DNA from: a virus
Direction: 5' to 3' (one strand)
Length of the DNA stretch: 40,610 nucleotides
IMG/VR virus record: IMGVR_UViG_3300010368_000031
Span: 1 to 40,610 of that record
The translations under genes and the position numbers were made by a program. The notes under the pieces are model-generated. The model was not told the origin of the DNA. It saw nothing but the letters and a program-made list of their open reading frames with translations, and did not search any database. This document shows positions 2,333 to 35,832 of this stretch, piece after piece (position 1 is the stretch's first letter; every line of letters begins with the position of its first letter).

Positions 2333-3273
2333 AGGCCATCAATCAGGTCATTACTGACGACTATGCAGTTTATCAAGGCGATAGCTGTGAATTGATTTCT
2401 GGTATCCCCGATAGCAGCATTCACTTCGGCATTCACTCGCCGCCGTTCGAGGGTCTTTACAAGTTTTCGTCGAGTGAGCGCGACCTTAGCAACAGCGAGG
2501 GGGCGCAATTTTGGGAACATTATGGATTTCTGATCCGCGAACTGCATCGCGTCACGATGCCTGGGCGCATTCATGCTGTCCATGTCATGCAATTGCCGAC
2601 CAGTAAGATCAGGCATGGCTATATCGGAATGCGCGACTTTCGGGGCGAGGTGATCCGCGCATTCGAGGCGGACGGATGGATTTTCCATTCTGAGGTCTGC
2701 ATCTGGAAAGATCCCGTAGTCGCTCAGCAGCGCACCAAGTCGATCCGACTTCTTCACAAGCAGATCGTGAAAGACAGCACGATTAGCGGACAGGGGTTGG
2801 CCGACTACATCGTATCGTTTCGCAAGCCCGGCGAAAACCCCGCCCCAGTTGCCGGGTGCTTCGACCGCTACGTCGGCACGAATGAGCCTGACAGGTCGAA
2901 ATACACAACGCCGACAGATGGCAGAAATTGGTACAGCATCGAGGTGTGGCAGCGGTATGCATCCCCTGTCTGGATGGATATTGACCAGACGCGCACCCTG
3001 CAATTTCGGACCGCCCGCGACGAGCGCGACGAAGTGCATATCTCGCCGCTACAGCTCGACGTAATCGAGCGATGCATCGACCTTTGGAGCAATCCCGGTG
3101 AGACCGTGCTTACGCCATTCCTCGGCATCGGTTCAGAAGTCTATTCGGCGATTGAGATGGGCCGAAAGGGCATCGGCTTCGAGTTGAAGGAGTCCTATTT
3201 CCGTCAAGCGGTCAAGAATCTGGCGAGGGCCAAAGAACGGCAGGTAGGGTTGTTCGCTGGGAGCGCCGCGTGA
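2329..3273 (+). CDS. Solitary amino-DNA methyltransferase (N4-C or N6-A), permuted beta-type order
   Basis: This 314-residue AdoMet-dependent DNA methyltransferase carries catalytic motif IV SPPF at residues 37-40 and AdoMet motif I F-L-G-I-G-S-E near 264-270. Motif order IV then I is the beta arrangement. SPPF is more common in N4-cytosine enzymes, whereas DPPY marks most N6-adenine enzymes, so N4-cytosine is favoured but unproven. The region between (residues 60-220) should hold the target recognition part. No restriction endonuclease is adjacent. The start overlaps the helicase stop and the stop overlaps the RusA ATG (TGATG), fixing it in the early operon. It is likely to modify phage DNA against host restriction or alter regulatory methylation. 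Confidence 0.82.
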   Translation: MKAINQVITDDYAVYQGDSCELISGIPDSSIHFGIHSPPFEGLYKFSSSERDLSNSEGAQFWEHYGFLIRELHRVTMPGRIHAVHVMQLPTSKIRHGYIGMRDFRGEVIRAFEADGWIFHSEVCIWKDPVVAQQRTKSIRLLHKQIVKDSTISGQGLADYIVSFRKPGENPAPVAGCFDRYVGTNEPDRSKYTTPTDGRNWYSIEVWQRYASPVWMDIDQTRTLQFRTARDERDEVHISPLQLDVIERCIDLWSNPGETVLTPFLGIGSEVYSAIEMGRKGIGFELKESYFRQAVKNLARAKERQVGLFAGSAA

Positions 3274-3611
3274 TGCACTCTGTCTGCCTATGGCTCCCAT
3301 TCCCCCCGAGCGTTAATGGCCTGTACCCCGGCAAGGTCCGGCGGTTCAAGTCGCGGCGCTACCGGAACTGGATCCATGAGGCGGACGTTGCGTTACTGCA
3401 ACAGGACTTCAAGCCCGTCGAGGGCAAGTGTGAGGTTCACTATAAGTTCGGACGCCCGGATGCCCGCAAGCGCGACGTGTTCAACTTCGAGAAGGCGCTG
3501 ACTGACTACCTCGTGAGCGCGGGCGTTATTGAAGACGATTCACTGATTGAGCGTGGGACTGTCGAATGGGCCACGCATAAAGGCGTAACAGTGGAGATAT
3601 GGCCGATATGA
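3273..3611 (+). CDS. rusA: RusA-type Holliday junction resolvase
   Basis: This 112-residue protein matches the RusA fold. It has an N-terminal L-P-F-P-P-S-V-N strand, and a central K-R-D-x-x-N-x-x-K-x-x-x-D helix supplying the metal-binding aspartates, followed by G-V-I-E-D-D. RusA cuts four-way junctions that arise during phage recombination and before packaging. ATG 3273 overlaps the methyltransferase stop; a GTG one codon earlier (3270) is also possible. The other recombination genes (ERF, SSB, NinB, DUF968) are in the leftward operon, so the module is split between the two early transcripts. Confidence 0.88.
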   Translation: MHSVCLWLPFPPSVNGLYPGKVRRFKSRRYRNWIHEADVALLQQDFKPVEGKCEVHYKFGRPDARKRDVFNFEKALTDYLVSAGVIEDDSLIERGTVEWATHKGVTVEIWPI

Positions 3612-3748
3612 CCGACGAACAACGCCGCCTAATCCAGGAATACGAACGCAAGCAGGAGCGATACGCCAAGGCGGAGCCGGGGTGTAAGACCGGCCACTGG
3701 CGATCCCTCAGGCTGTTGGTCAAGGACATGCTGGAGGCGGGCGCGTGA
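3608..3748 (+). CDS. Small hydrophilic protein, 46 aa
   Basis: A 46-codon frame starts with an ATG overlapping the RusA stop (ATGA) and ends with a TGA that overlaps the next GTG start. The protein begins M-T-D-E-Q-R-R-L, is charged throughout and is probably a helix followed by a short C-terminal basic helix. It is not recognised. Overlaps at both ends are the main evidence that it is translated. Confidence 0.55.
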   Translation: MTDEQRRLIQEYERKQERYAKAEPGCKTGHWRSLRLLVKDMLEAGA

Positions 3749-3894
3749 ACGCCATCTTCGCCCCCAACATCATCGCCGCGTGTCGCTGCCCGGCCTTTGC
3801 CGCGTGCTGCTACGCGATGGGTGCTGAGATGAAACCGCTATCGGGATATCCCGGACAATTCTCGTTTCTGATGACGTGGAGGGACCGTGACTGA
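3745..3894 (+). CDS. Small cysteine-rich protein, 49 aa
   Basis: This frame has a GTG start overlapping the upstream stop (GTGA) and ends inside the start region of the GcrA-like gene. The protein has five cysteines in its first half (A-A-C-R-C-P-A-F-A-A-C-C pattern), so metal binding is possible. It is not recognised. The chained overlaps on both sides support translation. Confidence 0.45.
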   Translation: MNAIFAPNIIAACRCPAFAACCYAMGAEMKPLSGYPGQFSFLMTWRDRD

Positions 3895-4441
3895 TTGGAC
3901 TGATACTCGTGTCGCATCACTTCGTCAGTTATGGCGAAGCGACCTAACAACATCTGAGATTGGCAACGCTATCGGCGTGTCCAAGAATGCCGTGATCGGC
4001 AAGGCGAAGCGTCTTGGGTTGGGCCAAAAGACAAACCGCGTGGTCGACAAGGAACCGACATATCGCATACACCGTAGCTCGCGGGATGGGTATCTGTCGA
4101 TCCGGTGGTATGATGACGGCAAGGAATACAGCAGAGCGACGGGGACAAAGGACCCAGAGAAAGCCGCAGCCTGCATCCCCGCTGCTATCGCTTACCATGA
4201 ATCCAGAAAGCGAATCGCGCTATTGGACAGTCTTGGTCGCCACCTATCCGACCTCGGCCACAATGAATGCCGGTGGGCAACGACACCACACAAGGTAAAG
4301 CCGTCCGAGCATCGATTCTGCGGTCTTCCCACGGCAGACGGTGATGTCTACTGTGACCGTCACAATGTCAAGAAACGCATGAAGTGGGTGCGCGGCCAGA
4401 AAAAGACCGACTTCATGATATACAAGGGGTCGGCAGCATGA
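3887..4441 (+). CDS. GcrA-like cell cycle regulator with an inserted middle domain
   Basis: This 184-residue protein has the two conserved ends of GcrA. Residues 1-45 form the helix-turn-helix, with W-T-D-x-R-V near the start, L-W then S-E-I-G and K-N-A-V-I-G-K-A-K-R-L-G-L. Residues about 125-165 form the Cys/His end, with N-E-C-R-W, F-C-G-L-P and Y-C-x-x-H. GcrA is an alphaproteobacterial sigma70 cofactor that responds to GANTC methylation by CcrM. Between the ends, residues 55-105 are unusual, with a G-Y-L-S-I-R-W-Y-D-D-G-K strand set followed by an alanine-rich helix, somewhat like an AP2-type DNA-binding unit. The start is GTG 3887, preceded by GGAGGG. It may redirect host transcription or act as the phage's own activator. 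Confidence 0.82.
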   Translation: MTDWTDTRVASLRQLWRSDLTTSEIGNAIGVSKNAVIGKAKRLGLGQKTNRVVDKEPTYRIHRSSRDGYLSIRWYDDGKEYSRATGTKDPEKAAACIPAAIAYHESRKRIALLDSLGRHLSDLGHNECRWATTPHKVKPSEHRFCGLPTADGDVYCDRHNVKKRMKWVRGQKKTDFMIYKGSAA

Positions 4442-4800
4442 CATTCAATGACTTCTGGGCCGTCTGCCCGCCAGGCCGTAAGATCGACAAGCCCACATGT
4501 ATGGCGCTGTTCAACGGCATCACCAACGGCGGCATCGAGACCACATCAGTGGACCCGGACGGCAACCGTCACAAGCTGCACTTGCAAGCCACGCCGCAAG
4601 AGTTGGTCGAGGCCATGAAGGCTTCCCGCTGGCAGTGGAACGAGCAGGACACGGCATTGTGCTTCATCCCGCACCCGAGAACGTGGCTGAACAAAGGCCG
4701 GTTCATGGACCTTGAAGACGACGAGCGCCGCGAGATGGCCGCGCGTTGGGACCGGGTACAGGAGATTATGACGGATCGGAAGGTGGTGAACCTGCGGTGA
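4438..4800 (+). CDS. Replication-initiation-type C-terminal domain protein
   Basis: This 120-residue protein has the pattern at the C-terminus of many phage replication and helicase-loader proteins: F-N-D-F-W-x-x-x-P at the N-terminus, a central helical part, then F-I-P-H-P-R-T-W-L-N-K-G-R-F-M-D. The larger DNA-binding part of those proteins is absent, so it is a stand-alone version of that domain. ATG 4438 overlaps the GcrA-like stop. No DNA polymerase, primase or DnaB-type helicase was found, so the phage probably recruits host replication enzymes. This protein and the SNF2-type helicase are the likely contacts (inference). Confidence 0.6.
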   Translation: MTFNDFWAVCPPGRKIDKPTCMALFNGITNGGIETTSVDPDGNRHKLHLQATPQELVEAMKASRWQWNEQDTALCFIPHPRTWLNKGRFMDLEDDERREMAARWDRVQEIMTDRKVVNLR

Positions 4801-4934
4801 TCTCAAAGGCAGCACGTCGGCGGGATGTGACGCTGGGGCGTGCTGTTCAATCCGGTACCAGGGGCGAGTGCATAACCGGGCAGGCGAGTACGAAAGGCGG
4901 AGCGCCGCACTCATCGGGGACAGACACCCGATAA
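4797..4934 (+). CDS. Doubtful small basic protein, 45 aa
   Basis: The GTG start overlaps the preceding stop as GTGA and the frame ends at 4934. The product is basic and rich in glycine, serine and threonine, with no core. It is not recognised. The following 4935-5099 contains no convincing gene: short open stretches exist in all frames but lack starts, and the phrase GGGTCAAGACT occurs twice (about 5002 and 5073). Confidence 0.25.
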   Translation: MISKAARRRDVTLGRAVQSGTRGECITGQASTKGGAPHSSGTDTR

Positions 4935-5099
4935 GCAGCCGCCAACCTCATGGGCCACTGTCGGCATCGTGGGGGCCACAAGCGAAGGGATTGGCTCCGA
5001 GGGTCAAGACTTCACGCGGAGGCTGGTAACGGTCTAGGGCCGTACTATGCCTTCGCTCAGGGAATCACCAAGGGTCAAGACTATAGAGGATTGATGACA

Positions 5100-5243
5100 A
5101 TGACCTACGCACTATTCGCTTACGCCCTGATGGGCCTGATCGCTGCCCTGTACCATATCGTCAGGGAACCCGATGCGGGCGCACTCGAATACCTGAAGAC
5201 GCTGGCCCTATGGCCGGTGCGGATATGGAGGTGGATACCATGA
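5100..5243 (+). CDS. Small single-span membrane protein, 47 aa
   Basis: The product starts M-T-Y-A-L-F-A-Y and has one hydrophobic segment (about residues 3-22) followed by a cytoplasmic-type tail ending W-R-W-I-P. ATG 5100 was preferred over ATG 5094 because AGAGGA at 5085-5090 gives a better spacing. The stop overlaps the next ATG at 5240. No family is recognised. Many phage small membrane proteins act on the host envelope, but nothing here shows that. Confidence 0.5.
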   Translation: MTYALFAYALMGLIAALYHIVREPDAGALEYLKTLALWPVRIWRWIP

Positions 5244-5515
5244 TCACCAAGTCAGACATAGCGGAACTGGTGGGGCGGGCGAGGAATATGTCTGCGGCAC
5301 TCCAGCTTGGCGAGCGCATCGGATGGGGTTCGGACACTTCGTTGATGGACGCTCTTGCCGCCGCCCTCGAAGCACAACAGGCAGAGATAGCGCGGTTGGT
5401 TGGTGCGCTGCGCGAGATTGAGGAGTTCGGCTGTAACGCGCCGGGGTGTGGGTTCACGTGCGCCGCAAAGGCCCGCGCCGCCCTCAAGGCATGGGAAGGC
5501 AATGAAGATGGCTAA
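5240..5515 (+). CDS. Hypothetical helical protein, 91 aa
   Basis: The start M-I-T-K-S-D was chosen because GGAGGTG lies six bases upstream of ATG 5240. The protein is alpha-helical with a coiled-coil-like centre (A-A-A-L-E-A-Q-Q-A-E-I-A-R-L) and two cysteines (C-N-A-P-G-C, then a third at F-T-C) near the end that could bind a metal. It resembles the many small phage ead/Ea22-like helical proteins in character only. It overlaps the following gene by eight bases. Confidence 0.6.
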   Translation: MITKSDIAELVGRARNMSAALQLGERIGWGSDTSLMDALAAALEAQQAEIARLVGALREIEEFGCNAPGCGFTCAAKARAALKAWEGNEDG

Positions 5516-5987
5516 ACGAGGAAGACCGAGAAAGGACATCATGCTGCAAATCGTACACCAACAGGAAGAAGCTATGCGTAAGGCGAAGATCGGTTCCATT
5601 GCCAACGGCGACGAACAGCGGGGCGCGTATCCCCTTGGTGCGCTATGGGCGCGGGAGTTCATCGACCAGTCAAGGCATGACGCTGGCGTGAAGTACGCGG
5701 AACTATACGGGCGGGTATTCGGCAGGACCACGCCGGGGACAAGCGACGGCAGCCCCGAACTGTCCGAAGCGGCGATGGAGAAATGCGAGCGCGACTACTG
5801 GGAGGCTGCAAACCTGCTGGCATCACACTCACGCGCCATCAAGGACGCGGTGGACAATGCGGCGGTCTACAGCCGCTATCCGTCAATGCTGTTTCACGCC
5901 CGCAAGCGCCGATCCGATAAGCACCTGCTAGACGGTCTGGCGATCCTAGACAAGCTGTTCAACGCGGGTGAGAGGGCGGTGGCTTGA
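5508..5987 (+). CDS. Basic DNA-binding-type protein before the late promoter (candidate late regulator)
   Basis: This 159-residue protein starts at ATG 5508, eight bases after GGAAGG. Its N-terminus K-R-G-R-P-R-K is an AT-hook-like minor-groove binding motif. The rest is helical, with a long predicted helix around E-R-D-Y-W-E-A-A-N-L-L and a basic H-A-R-K-R-R-S-D-K stretch. It is the last gene before the strong late promoter, the position held by Q-type antiterminators in lambdoid phages. The stop codon even overlaps a TTGACA at 5984. A late-gene regulator is therefore plausible, but no sequence family was recognised. Confidence 0.6.
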   Translation: MAKRGRPRKDIMLQIVHQQEEAMRKAKIGSIANGDEQRGAYPLGALWAREFIDQSRHDAGVKYAELYGRVFGRTTPGTSDGSPELSEAAMEKCERDYWEAANLLASHSRAIKDAVDNAAVYSRYPSMLFHARKRRSDKHLLDGLAILDKLFNAGERAVA

Positions 5988-6005: not shown

Positions 6006-6034
6006 TTGACACGGTGTCTAGTGAGCCGTACAAT
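6006..6034 (+). promoter_or_regulatory. Strong sigma70-type late promoter
   Basis: TTGACA at 6006-6011 and TACAAT at 6029-6034 are separated by 17 bases, close to the sigma70 consensus. A second TTGACA at 5984-5989 lies 22 bases upstream. Transcription would start near 6041 and enter the structured RNA at 6041-6290 and then the terminase genes. The arrangement is like the PR' late promoter and 6S leader RNA of lambda. Confidence 0.75.
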
Positions 6035-6040
6035 CTGAAT

Positions 6041-6290
6041 ATTCTATGATGGTTTCGTGCGCCCACGGTTCGCCGGTCGGGCGCTGTTTCATTGGGGCTG
6101 ACAGGGAACGGGCAAGCGCCTCAGTCGGGTCATGTAAGCCGTTAGGCCACAGTACCCGAGACGCCTCTGCCGCACGTCGGTTCAATTCCGACCGGCTCCA
6201 CCAGTTTCGCCCGCTGCGCCTCTAACAGCATCCCAGTATAACGGCGACTCTCCGCGCCGATTGGTAGAGCGAGGGGTGAGCGGGCGATTC
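6041..6290 (+). ncRNA. Structured leader or non-coding RNA between early and late genes
   Basis: No gene fits here, but the strand folds in three modules. The first is GCGCCC/GGGCGC (about 6059-6083) enclosing CGG-TTCG-CCG. The second is a tRNA-like domain at 6094-6203 (separate entry). The third is a long helix with TCGCCCGCT (6207-6215) pairing perfectly with AGCGGGCGA (6279-6287), continued by CTCTA (6220-6224) with TAGAG (6265-6269) and GGCG with CGCC inside (6243-6246, 6255-6258). A strong promoter lies directly upstream. The folds were made by hand, so pairings outside the perfect stems are tentative. Confidence 0.6.
6094..6203 (+). ncRNA. tRNA-like domain with tmRNA features and encoded CCA
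   Basis: 5' GGGGCTG (6094-6100) pairs with CGGCTCC (6193-6199), followed by A73 and CCA. The T-arm GTCGG-TTCAATT-CCGAC (6176-6192) is perfect. The third acceptor pair is G-U, the alanine-tRNA identity element also present in tmRNA, and 5' GGGGCTGA is the same as the E. coli tmRNA 5' end. There is no D-stem and no normal anticodon arm. The middle forms one long imperfect helix (GGCA/TGCC, GCG/CGC, CGGGT/ACCCG) capped by GCC-GTTA-GGC, like tmRNA helix P2. No tag reading frame is present. It is either a minimal tmRNA-like RNA or a decayed tRNA. Confidence 0.55.
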
Positions 6291-6737: not shown

Positions 6738-7052
6738 ATGGCTAAGAGCAGCACGAGTTTCAAGAAGGGGGAAAGCGGCAACCCCTCCGGTCGCCCTGCC
6801 ATCGTTCACGAGGTCAAGGAACTGGCCCGCGAACACACGACCGAGGCTATTCAAACACTCGTTAAGGTCATGGTGGACGAAACGGCCCCGCCTGCAGCCC
6901 GTGTGGCGGCGGCTAACTCTGTTCTGGATCGGGGGTATGGCCGCGCCCCGCAAACCCTGGATGTGAATGTCAAACAATCAGTCGGAGAGTTCATCGCCGA
7001 GTGCCAGCGTTTGGCAGCCGCTGACGCCACATCAAGTACAGTTCGCCACTGA
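6738..7052 (+). CDS. DUF5681-like protein, probable small terminase role
   Basis: This 104-residue protein has the DUF5681-type N-terminus (F-K-K-G-E-S-G-N-P-S-G-R-P), a helical region with E-V-K-E-L-A-R-E-H-T and the conserved A-P-P-A-A-R-V-A-A-A-N-S-V-L-D-R-G-Y-G segment. Such proteins sit directly before large terminase genes in many phages, where a small terminase subunit recognises the packaging site. The large terminase start at 6967 lies inside this gene in another frame, an 86-base overlap that suggests tight coupling. Confidence 0.65.
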   Translation: MAKSSTSFKKGESGNPSGRPAIVHEVKELAREHTTEAIQTLVKVMVDETAPPAARVAAANSVLDRGYGRAPQTLDVNVKQSVGEFIAECQRLAAADATSSTVRH

Positions 7053-8409
7053 TCCTGTTTCATTCGTTCGGGTTGTCATGCGGGCGGAACCGGAAGCGTG
7101 GCAAATCGAGGCGCTGTCCGCGCTTGTGACTGATGACCGGATTGCGATTCGGTCGGGTCACGGTGTCGGAAAGTCTGCATTCATGGCTTGGGTCGTGCTG
7201 TGGTGGTTGTGTACGCGCTTCCCCGCGAAGATTGCCTGCACCGCCCCGACCGCACACCAGCTTGAGGATGTGCTGTGGGGTGAAATAGCCAAGTGGCACC
7301 GCCAGATGGCCGAACCGTACCGGGGGTGGCTGTCTGTCGGTTCTGGTCGCGTTGAGCAGAAGGACAACGCATCCGAGGCGTTCGCCGTTGCGAGAACGGC
7401 ACGTAAGGAGCAGCCTGAGGCATTCCAGGGGTTTCACTCCGACAACATGCTCTTCATCGTGGATGAGGCGTCCGGTGTCGAGGACATCATTTTCGAGGTT
7501 GGGCAGGGTGCCATGTCCACCGAGGGCGCAAAGACTCTCATGGCGGGTAATCCGACGCGAACGAGCGGATACTTCTATGACGCATTCCACAAGATGCGGG
7601 CGAGGTGGCGCACGTTCCGGGTTAGCTGCAAGGATTCAACCCGTGTAGCGCCGGGGTACGCCGACGAGATTGCCGACCAGTACGGGCCTGACAGCAACGT
7701 CTATCGGGTTCGTGTAGAGGGTGAGTTCCCGCTTGAGGATGATGACGCGGTAATCCCACTGCATCTCTGCGAGGGGGCTATCATCCGTGAAGTCGAGATG
7801 AGCGAGCGCACCCGGCCCGTGTGGGGATTGGACCCCGCCCGGTTTGGTGATGACCGCACCGCCCTTTGCAAGCGCCATGTGAATTGCATTTACGAGCCGG
7901 TCAGGTTCTGGCGCGGCAAGGACACGATGCAGACGGCGGGCATGGTGAAGCTGGAGTATGACCAGACACCGGAACACCTGAGGCCCTCAAATATATACGT
8001 GGACGTGATTGGACTTGGTGCCGGTGTTGTGGACCGGCTGAATGAGATGGGTCTGCCGGTCTCGGGCATCAACGTGGGTGAGGCCCCGTCGATCCGCGAG
8101 CGGTTCATGCGGCGACGTGACGAGTTGTGGTTCCAAGCGCGTGAGTGGCTGGAGGCAAGGGACTGCAGAATCCCCGATCAGGGTGAGTTAATCGCTGAAC
8201 TCACGGCTCCGAAATACAAGCTGACCAGCTCCGGCAAGGTACAGGTCGAGAGCAAGGACGAGATGAAGAAGCGCGGCATTCCAAGCCCCGACTTGGCGGA
8301 TGCGTTCTGCCTGACGTTGGCGGGCGACGGTATGCCTATCGAGCAACATGAAATCGACCGATACGCCCGCAGGGGGCGGAAGCGATCAACAAACTGGATG
8401 GCGGCTTAA
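6967..8409 (+). CDS. terL: Terminase large subunit
   Basis: This 480-residue packaging motor-nuclease has the ATPase Walker A GHGVGKS (64-70), a Walker B F-I-V-D-E-A near 162-167 and a coupling G-N-P-T near 195. The RNase H-like nuclease part carries acidic residues in W-G-L-D-P-A-R-F-G-D-D (about 285), Y-V-D-V-I-G and S-P-D-L-A-D-A-F (about 439). It hydrolyses ATP to pump DNA into proheads and cuts concatemers. ATG 6967 overlaps the preceding gene. The conserved part begins near residue 15, so a somewhat later start cannot be excluded. The stop overlaps the portal ATG (TAATG). Confidence 0.95.
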   Translation: MSNNQSESSSPSASVWQPLTPHQVQFATDPVSFVRVVMRAEPEAWQIEALSALVTDDRIAIRSGHGVGKSAFMAWVVLWWLCTRFPAKIACTAPTAHQLEDVLWGEIAKWHRQMAEPYRGWLSVGSGRVEQKDNASEAFAVARTARKEQPEAFQGFHSDNMLFIVDEASGVEDIIFEVGQGAMSTEGAKTLMAGNPTRTSGYFYDAFHKMRARWRTFRVSCKDSTRVAPGYADEIADQYGPDSNVYRVRVEGEFPLEDDDAVIPLHLCEGAIIREVEMSERTRPVWGLDPARFGDDRTALCKRHVNCIYEPVRFWRGKDTMQTAGMVKLEYDQTPEHLRPSNIYVDVIGLGAGVVDRLNEMGLPVSGINVGEAPSIRERFMRRRDELWFQAREWLEARDCRIPDQGELIAELTAPKYKLTSSGKVQVESKDEMKKRGIPSPDLADAFCLTLAGDGMPIEQHEIDRYARRGRKRSTNWMAA

Positions 8410-34782: not shown

Positions 34783-35832
34783 TTAACCTACCATTTGGCG
34801 AATTTGTGCCAAGATGTCTTTATCGCTCCCCCTCGGTCGCGCGCTGCGAACAAGTTCCCGTTGTCGATCTGTTGAAACGGTTCCGTAGCTGGTGAATGTC
34901 GTAAGCGGGCTTTCGTGCCCGAGGTTCTGGCTCCAGGACTTCAGTGCCTCAGGTCCATTGCAATGGGAATAGGCAAGGTGCGCCAGCATGTGCCGGAAGC
35001 TGTGTGGGGTGAAGTTCGGGAGCCCTGCTGCCTCGAATGCAGACTTGAATACTTTTCTGACAGGCCCTGCGTTGGACCAGAACTCTCGGCTGATGCCAGC
35101 GGGGGTAAAACAGTCGTCGGCATCGAGACCCATGCGGGTTTTGGGGAATATCGGATCGTCGGCACAGAAAAGAAGGACCTCGCGCAGGTACTGAAGCCAC
35201 TTCCGGGCGATGTCCTCGCATTGGTCGCTGACCGGGAAAAAATAGGTGTCGATCCGCTTGCTCGCCTTGGTCGCCACTTCTCTAGGATTTTGCATGACGT
35301 GTGCTGTGGCCGGATCGACATGCTTCAACCGAAGCGAAACCAGCGCCCCATCTCGCACCCCGGTGATGGCCGTGAAGGCGATCAAGGCGCGGTCACGCTT
35401 ATGAATATCCGTATCGTCGGGCATCCCGGACAGCACGTGCTCGACCTGTTCGATGGTCGGATAGCGGCGTTCGCCCGGAGCTTTTGCCGCCCGCGTGTCT
35501 TTTTCGCTCAAGTTTAAGAACTCGATGTCAGTAACGGCTATTTTGGACTTGTAACCATTCTGAAGTGCTAGCCAGCCGAAGAATCGTTTGAGCGCCGTGA
35601 CCATCGACAAGAGAGTTGCCTTCGAAAGTCTGCGTTGCGTTAGGTGTTCCTTGAAGGCGCGAGCGCGACGTTGGTCAAAAGTCGAGAAGTCGGCGCGGTC
35701 TGTAAAGTCCTCATACTGCTGAATGGCTTTCTCAATTTGCCGGATGGTCGCATCCGCGCGTCCGTCAGCGTGCTTAAGGAACTCAACGTACCGGCGTTTG
35801 ATTCGTTCATTCTTTGGGTTGCGGTTGCTCAT
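34783..35832 (-). CDS. int: Tyrosine recombinase (integrase) of the inserted element
   Basis: This 349-residue protein has an N-terminal core-binding SAM-like domain (about 10-95). The catalytic residues are R160 (G-V-R-D-G), a lysine near 189-192, H277-x-x-R280 (H-S-F-R-H), H306 (L-G-H-E-S) and nucleophile Y316. The protein is complete and should be active. It lies next to the right repeat. No excisionase-like gene was noted in the element. Confidence 0.93.
   Translation of the reverse strand: MSNRNPKNERIKRRYVEFLKHADGRADATIRQIEKAIQQYEDFTDRADFSTFDQRRARAFKEHLTQRRLSKATLLSMVTALKRFFGWLALQNGYKSKIAVTDIEFLNLSEKDTRAAKAPGERRYPTIEQVEHVLSGMPDDTDIHKRDRALIAFTAITGVRDGALVSLRLKHVDPATAHVMQNPREVATKASKRIDTYFFPVSDQCEDIARKWLQYLREVLLFCADDPIFPKTRMGLDADDCFTPAGISREFWSNAGPVRKVFKSAFEAAGLPNFTPHSFRHMLAHLAYSHCNGPEALKSWSQNLGHESPLTTFTSYGTVSTDRQRELVRSARPRGSDKDILAQIRQMVG

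Follow-up and report, generated by a model that had tools for sequence, protein, structure and literature searches.

A one-piece, tag-less tmRNA-like RNA upstream of the packaging genes of a metagenomic phage, and RNAs of the same plan in other phages

The viral record IMGVR_UViG_3300010368_000031 of IMG/VR (a stretch of 40,610 nt, called here the window) encodes at positions 6094-6203 a one-piece, tag-less RNA with the tRNA-like domain (TLD) of transfer-messenger RNA (tmRNA), in which a single hairpin replaces the tag reading frame and the pseudoknots. The structure of this RNA, its homologs, covariation and an independent covariance model support its assignment as a TLD-only (tag-less) tmRNA. 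The kind as such is already known, in the published accounts cited below, from mycobacteriophage DS6A and some organelles, and is hardly explored. New here are its breadth in phages, a member from a presumably alphaproteobacterial phage, a promoter of its own, and the recurrent placement upstream of terminase genes. We consider the breadth a more interesting result than the window RNA alone.

Anatomy of the RNA

An earlier reading of this DNA from its letters alone (the sequence-only reading) had described an RNA of 110 nt with a 7-bp acceptor stem, an encoded CCA, a perfect T-arm and neither D-stem nor anticodon arm. All of these parts can be read directly (Table 1), and the minimum-free-energy fold, at -44.3 kcal/mol, is exactly the architecture described. 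The "one long helix" of that reading is indeed a single long hairpin, but one broken up by bulges and internal loops. The tag-coding and pseudoknot parts are missing, as had been stated: the 61-nt insert has no tag-like ending (Ala-Ala-stop), and the ATG-TAA noticed inside the hairpin lies at 6132-6137. We rejected this ATG-TAA as a minimal "tag", since it is not common to the class of RNAs described below. G3-U70, A73 and CCA on a 7-bp acceptor make up an alanine-type identity; the alanine determinant pointed out earlier is thus present, and all three features are identical in the homolog from phage contig L147.

The fold energy is only modestly unusual (z -1.9), and the case therefore rests on motif statistics and homologs. 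A 7-bp acceptor combined with a 5-bp T-arm and ACCA occurs once in the window and never, at any spacing tried, in 200 Markov-randomised genomes of window size. No copy of the RNA was found in 638 kb of terminase relatives (80 loci), among which the window alone has the motif.

Assignment to the tmRNA class

ARAGORN reported no tRNA or tmRNA at the element, and an Rfam scan at curated cut-offs gave nothing there. Below its cut-off of 47 bits, the tmRNA model RF00023 matches the element end to end (6094-6203) with 34.4 bits; the tmRNA check proposed in the sequence-only reading gave no call with ARAGORN and a full-length, sub-threshold match with the covariance model. The tRNA model RF00005 reaches 12.4 bits (cut-off 29), for a T-arm fragment only. 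The model of the permuted, two-piece tmRNA (RF04321) gives 14.7 bits against 47, and the acceptor strands stand in normal order, 5' then 3', in agreement with the non-permuted form read earlier.

The covariance model R1, which rests on 9 unrelated TLD-only RNAs from phages and excludes those of the window and L147, was searched against 45 sources rich in tRNAs. It recovers the window RNA at its exact ends with 40.5 bits and the L147 RNA with 39.0 bits; in the same search the best ordinary tRNA scores 32.9 bits, pieces of full tmRNAs score at most 40.4 bits, and most class members outside the model score 51-65 bits. A model built without the window thus finds its RNA at the exact ends and above ordinary tRNAs, which argues for a TLD-only tmRNA. 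When R1 was run on the 638 kb of terminase relatives and the window, the window RNA was the sole match with E < 1 (E 2.4e-5). Scored in these ways, with R1 and with RF00005, the element stands apart from ordinary tRNAs and from background, in favour of the earlier proposal of a miniature, non-permuted, tag-less tmRNA-like RNA, which the homologs, the covariation and the independent model support.

The same results bear on two explanations of the locus to which we give next to no credence, an intron-containing tRNA of the ordinary kind and a gene for a small protein. ARAGORN found no tRNA and RF00005 matched the T-arm only; an open reading frame of 59 amino acids (6046-6225) does exist on the plus strand, but an in-frame stop at its codon 33 in L147 breaks the frame, and we rejected the protein-coding reading. 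Two other candidates were rejected as well: a canonical tmRNA, which would have a tag frame, pseudoknots and an RF00023 score above the cut-off, and a permuted tmRNA using GGGGTGA at ~6272, which forms only ~5 of the 7 acceptor pairs, while the upstream GGGGCTG pairs fully.

Several observations weigh against the assignment. The RF00023 score lies under the cut-off, and tRNA-Ala genes score up to 35.8 bits on that model, so that RF00023 alone does not discriminate. The window RNA is a weaker member of the class on R1 (40.5 bits, against 51-71 for most members); its D-loop lacks the UUCGA typical of tmRNA, its helix P2 aligns poorly with the class, and R1 with filters off gave another parse (6135-6203, 24.8 bits). 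Finally, the window type of RNA is known from two sequences only, and some pairs of the long hairpin are weakened in L147 by substitutions (element positions 56-57 and 67).

A homolog in a second phage type

Scanning IMG/VR with a structural pattern brought up the element in one further phage type, represented by four contigs (L147, L171, L195 and L201). Over 110 columns the window and L147 RNAs differ by 10 substitutions and no indels (90.9% identity). One T-A pair of the T-stem is G-C in L147, a compensatory change on both sides, and this pair, seen in two sequences only, is the one candidate case of covariation within the window lineage. The two phages are 98.7% identical in the early genes, 96.3% in promoter and leader and 89.2% in the hairpin downstream of the RNA (element B); the protein gene that follows reaches only 73.1%, so that the RNA is the better conserved of the two. 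BLASTN of the element against phages and plasmids returned short partial matches only, mostly to tRNA-type 3' ends. An alternative fold derived from the two-sequence alignment (CAGGG/CUCUG with GGGC/GCCU) was rejected, as it consumes the D-loop that the class keeps open.

This comparison also speaks to the idea that the RNA is a relic, left by a tmRNA or tRNA-Ala gene of the host that was picked up along with an attachment site. Phages with a tyrosine integrase often integrate into the 3' ends of tRNA or tmRNA genes, and the window phage has such an integrase (34783-35832). However, the record places 28 kb between the integrase and the RNA, both ends of this RNA are present and paired, its T-stem change is compensatory and it is better conserved than the neighbouring gene, all of which makes a relic very improbable.

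The left arms of the two phages are nearly identical (98.7-99.7% between window 3598-5987 and L147 1-2390) and then diverge abruptly at ~5983-5987, a module boundary just before the promoter of the RNA. L147 has there ~1.6 kb of other genes absent from the window (2390-4031), with three imperfect 44-nt repeats and a gene whose C-terminal half is, by eye, IS110-type transposase-like. The window and L147 phages are mosaics with a common early module.

RNAs of the same plan in unrelated phages

Unrelated IMG/VR contigs carry RNAs of the same plan: acceptor, D-loop with GG, no D-stem, a hairpin at the place of P2, AC, T-arm and CCA. Structural pattern scans of IMG/VR found 18 types besides that of the window, near-identical RNAs being counted once, with sizes of 83-113 nt (L096, L103, L122, L123, L134, the L140/L196/L199/L118 group, L168, L184, L223, L224, L225, L226, L227, L228, L229, L231, L233 and L234). 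Fifteen of these 18 pass the RF00023 cut-off, matching model positions 1-374 with a deletion that takes out the entire tag and pseudoknot part. ARAGORN gives nothing at most class loci; it calls the L223 and L225 RNAs tRNAs and extends that of L228 to a doubtful tmRNA. A survey of phage tmRNAs in the literature was based on ARAGORN (PMC9004378), and most of the RNAs of the present work go unreported by that program.

Of the cells in the class alignment A6, 99.2% are paired; shuffling lowers this to 77%, and sliding the partners to 52-60%. Double changes occur in 71 cells, versus 16.6 in shuffles; A6 was fitted to the structure of the model, and these counts lean towards that structure. The double changes fall in acceptor pairs 5-7, all four P2 pairs and three T-stem pairs. 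The search patterns had imposed G1-G4, the CTCC strand, the T-loop and part of the D-loop, and had left acceptor pairs 5-7, the T-stem, P2 and the AC free, the AC being a criterion in a later clean-up step. The G3-U70 pair, universal in the class, is thus partly imposed by the search. The long hairpin of the window RNA was left unaligned in A6 and is the least tested part of the element.

A scan of GTDB genomes with a window-like pattern gave 8 matches, all of them ordinary tRNAs or full tmRNAs. The 8 isolate phages matched by the class that we examined all have complete one-piece or permuted tmRNAs, and no isolate was found beyond the published DS6A. The sequence-only reading had included neither the existence of TLD-only tmRNA as a kind nor its recurrence in many phages.

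Some neighbours of these RNAs were recorded on the way. An abiF RNA (RF03085, abortive-infection type) lies within ~1.2 kb of two TLD-only RNAs (L184 6302-6338 and L122 12527-12563, both on the minus strand), and a type II hammerhead ribozyme ~4 kb from another (L229 9705-9768, minus strand). Among phages with complete tmRNAs, Tunturiibacter phage Tunturi_4 (L239) has a release-factor gene with an RF-1 domain (gp53) just upstream of its permuted tmRNA, two ribosome-rescue-type genes thereby adjoining, and Mycobacterium phage SirSheldon (L240) combines, within one tRNA region, a GOLLD RNA (2301-2714) with a tmRNA that is not annotated (1129-1531).

Promoter and genomic context

The window RNA sits between a consensus promoter and the packaging genes (Table 1). 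The sequence-only reading had called this promoter "late"; the promoter itself matches the consensus at 11 of 12 positions, where chance would give 0.7 such matches in 1.6 kb, and recurs unaltered in L147, while its lateness is presumed only. Directly 3' of the RNA, the strongly folded element B is conserved in three phages (window, L147 4320-4408 with 89% identity, and L206 57-144).

Table 1. Features of the window RNA and its surroundings (positions in the window).
Feature	Position	Strand	Basis
Predicted TLD-only tmRNA-like RNA, whole element, 110 nt	6094-6203	+	Fold; L147 homolog; R1 model ends; RF00023 34.4 bits (below cut-off)
Acceptor stem, 5' strand GGGGCTG, with G3 of G3-U70	6094-6100	+	Sequence; partner 6193-6199 in the fold
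D-loop, 10 nt, no D-stem, ACAGGGAACG, fits A-NN-GG-NNN-YG	6101-6110	+	Pattern recurs in other phage TLD-only RNAs
Long hairpin, 61 nt, at the place of helix P2 and the tag/pseudoknot region	6111-6171	+	Fold; C20-G76 is U-G in L147
Linker GCAC; AC adjoining the T-stem invariant in the class	6172-6175	+	Comparison with the class
T-arm GTCGG-TTCAATT-CCGAC	6176-6192	+	Compensatory change to GGCGG/CCGCC in L147
Acceptor 3' strand CGGCTCC (6193-6199), then encoded A73-CCA (6200-6203)	6193-6203	+	Sequence
Sigma-70-type promoter TTGACA-17 nt-TACAAT, upstream of the RNA	6006-6034	+	Consensus scan 11/12; unchanged in L147
Leader hairpin GCGCCC..CGG-UUCG-CCG..GGGCGC, between promoter and RNA	6059-6084	+	Sequence; kept in L147 with one C to U change
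Element B, second conserved RNA hairpin	6206-6290	+	z -4.1; conserved in L147 and L206
Large terminase subunit, gene 3' of the RNA in the same orientation	6967-8409	+	phrog_2 and Terminase_6N

The window phage encodes a P22-type portal, a Terminase_6N large subunit, the tyrosine integrase and a gene with a GcrA domain. GcrA is an alphaproteobacterial regulator, and because of this gene the host of the window phage is probably alphaproteobacterial; its own tmRNA would then be of the permuted two-piece form. The genes immediately preceding the terminase gene of the window have no recognisable homologs among the 80 loci of terminase relatives. Neither the window nor 26 other records that we examined yielded an SmpB gene, and the RNA of the window would therefore have to use host SmpB.

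A TLD-only RNA stands upstream of the terminase large-subunit gene, on the same strand, in 5 of the 19 types (L096, L168, L224, L233 and the window). This placement, between promoter and packaging genes in the window, would suit an RNA that serves as processing punctuation: within the leader of the operon that includes the terminase, the tRNA-like fold would serve RNase P and 3'-processing enzymes as a cleavage signal, setting the 5' end of the late mRNA, and the released RNA would be a by-product. However, the majority of the class is located elsewhere, for instance within a tRNA cluster (L223) or beside genes for polynucleotide kinase (L184), phosphoesterase or exonuclease (L140, L103) and UvsX (L234), and a cleavage signal needs no alanine identity, no GG in the D-loop and no invariant AC. 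We therefore hold this explanation to be distinctly unlikely.

A possible decoy against host ribosome rescue

tmRNA requires alanyl-tRNA synthetase (AlaRS), SmpB and EF-Tu, and SmpB occupies the space of the missing anticodon arm. We propose that the window RNA acts as a decoy against host ribosome rescue that titrates SmpB and/or AlaRS, a reading we favour because the recognition parts are kept and the template is absent, and to which we give about an even chance. The phage would transcribe the RNA from its promoter, and host RNase P and 3' nucleases would trim it to position 6094 and to the CCA end at 6203. It would be charged by AlaRS and bound by SmpB and EF-Tu-GTP; without a template it could not carry out tagging, and would tie up SmpB, AlaRS and/or the A sites of stalled ribosomes, so that host trans-translation would be damped during infection. 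What the phage would gain is the most speculative step: its proteins may be spared from tagging, or responses to stalled ribosomes may be kept from hampering infection. We know of no test of such a decoy in a host with two-piece tmRNA, which counts against the proposal. The structural part of the sequence-only reading thus stands, and the function it suggested, a decoy or substitute engaging SmpB or AlaRS, is plausible by analogy, fitting the DS6A and E. coli precedents.

The main rival is tag-less rescue, in which the charged TLD and host SmpB would enter stalled ribosomes, take over the nascent chain and help to clear these ribosomes with no degradation tag added, a role proposed for the tag-less tmRNAs of mitochondria. 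The anatomy is that of the mitochondrial tmRNAs that lack a tag frame, for which conservation alongside SmpB points to use in the account of PMC11915505, and the features for charging (G3-U70, A73 and CCA) are kept, the G3-U70 of the class with the restriction given above. Against it, the class shares no stop codon or template, the inserts of L134 and L223 being without any stop, and the one relevant cited experiment reports inhibition, whether the RNA is chargeable or not. We regard tag-less rescue as unlikely.

Whole tmRNAs are known in phages, and in the literature found a tag-less one is named from a single phage. The 19 distinct types in metagenomic phages and their strong covariation suggest that interference with ribosome rescue may be a recurrent phage tactic. 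Tentatively, and with somewhat less confidence than in the decoy itself, we suggest that TLD-only tmRNAs may be common, independently maintained anti-trans-translation RNAs of phages in many lineages, often placed at the start of packaging or late genes and overlooked since finders miss most of them; the window type would indicate that they act against the two-piece tmRNA of Alphaproteobacteria too. The size of ~100 nt makes the idea testable by expressing a single RNA, with protein tagging as readout, and these RNAs offer natural minimal TLDs for studying the recognition of tmRNA by AlaRS, EF-Tu and SmpB.

Comparison with known systems

The nearest known case is the TLD-only tmRNA reported in mycobacteriophage DS6A (tmID 11587; Mao et al. 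2009, as cited in PMC4131195 and PMC11915505), the only phage case that we found in these two accounts, which also describe a similar TLD-only molecule that inhibits tmRNA in E. coli. By its published description, rather than by its sequence, the DS6A RNA is like that of the window a tag-less TLD in a phage; its host is mycobacterial, whereas the window RNA has a 61-nt hairpin and a presumed alphaproteobacterial host. Tag-less tmRNAs are also described for mitochondria and two plastids, the latter of ~65 bp (PMC11915505). The mitochondrial tmRNAs of jakobids, which lack the mRNA-like region (Jacob et al. 2004), and the plastid ones of Mallomonadaceae have, as described there, kept the TLD and lost the tag region like the window RNA; they are organelle genes, the mitochondria having a mitochondrion-targeted SmpB, whereas the window RNA is encoded by a phage and has a hairpin where P2 would stand. 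With tmRNA and permuted tmRNA (RF00023 and RF04321) the window RNA shares the G3-U70 acceptor, the lack of a D-stem, AC followed by the T-arm, and CCA; unlike them it has no tag frame and no pseudoknots, and it is not permuted. Bacterial tRNA-Ala has the same acceptor identity and a T-arm, but the window RNA differs from it in having neither D-stem nor anticodon arm, as its low RF00005 score reflects.
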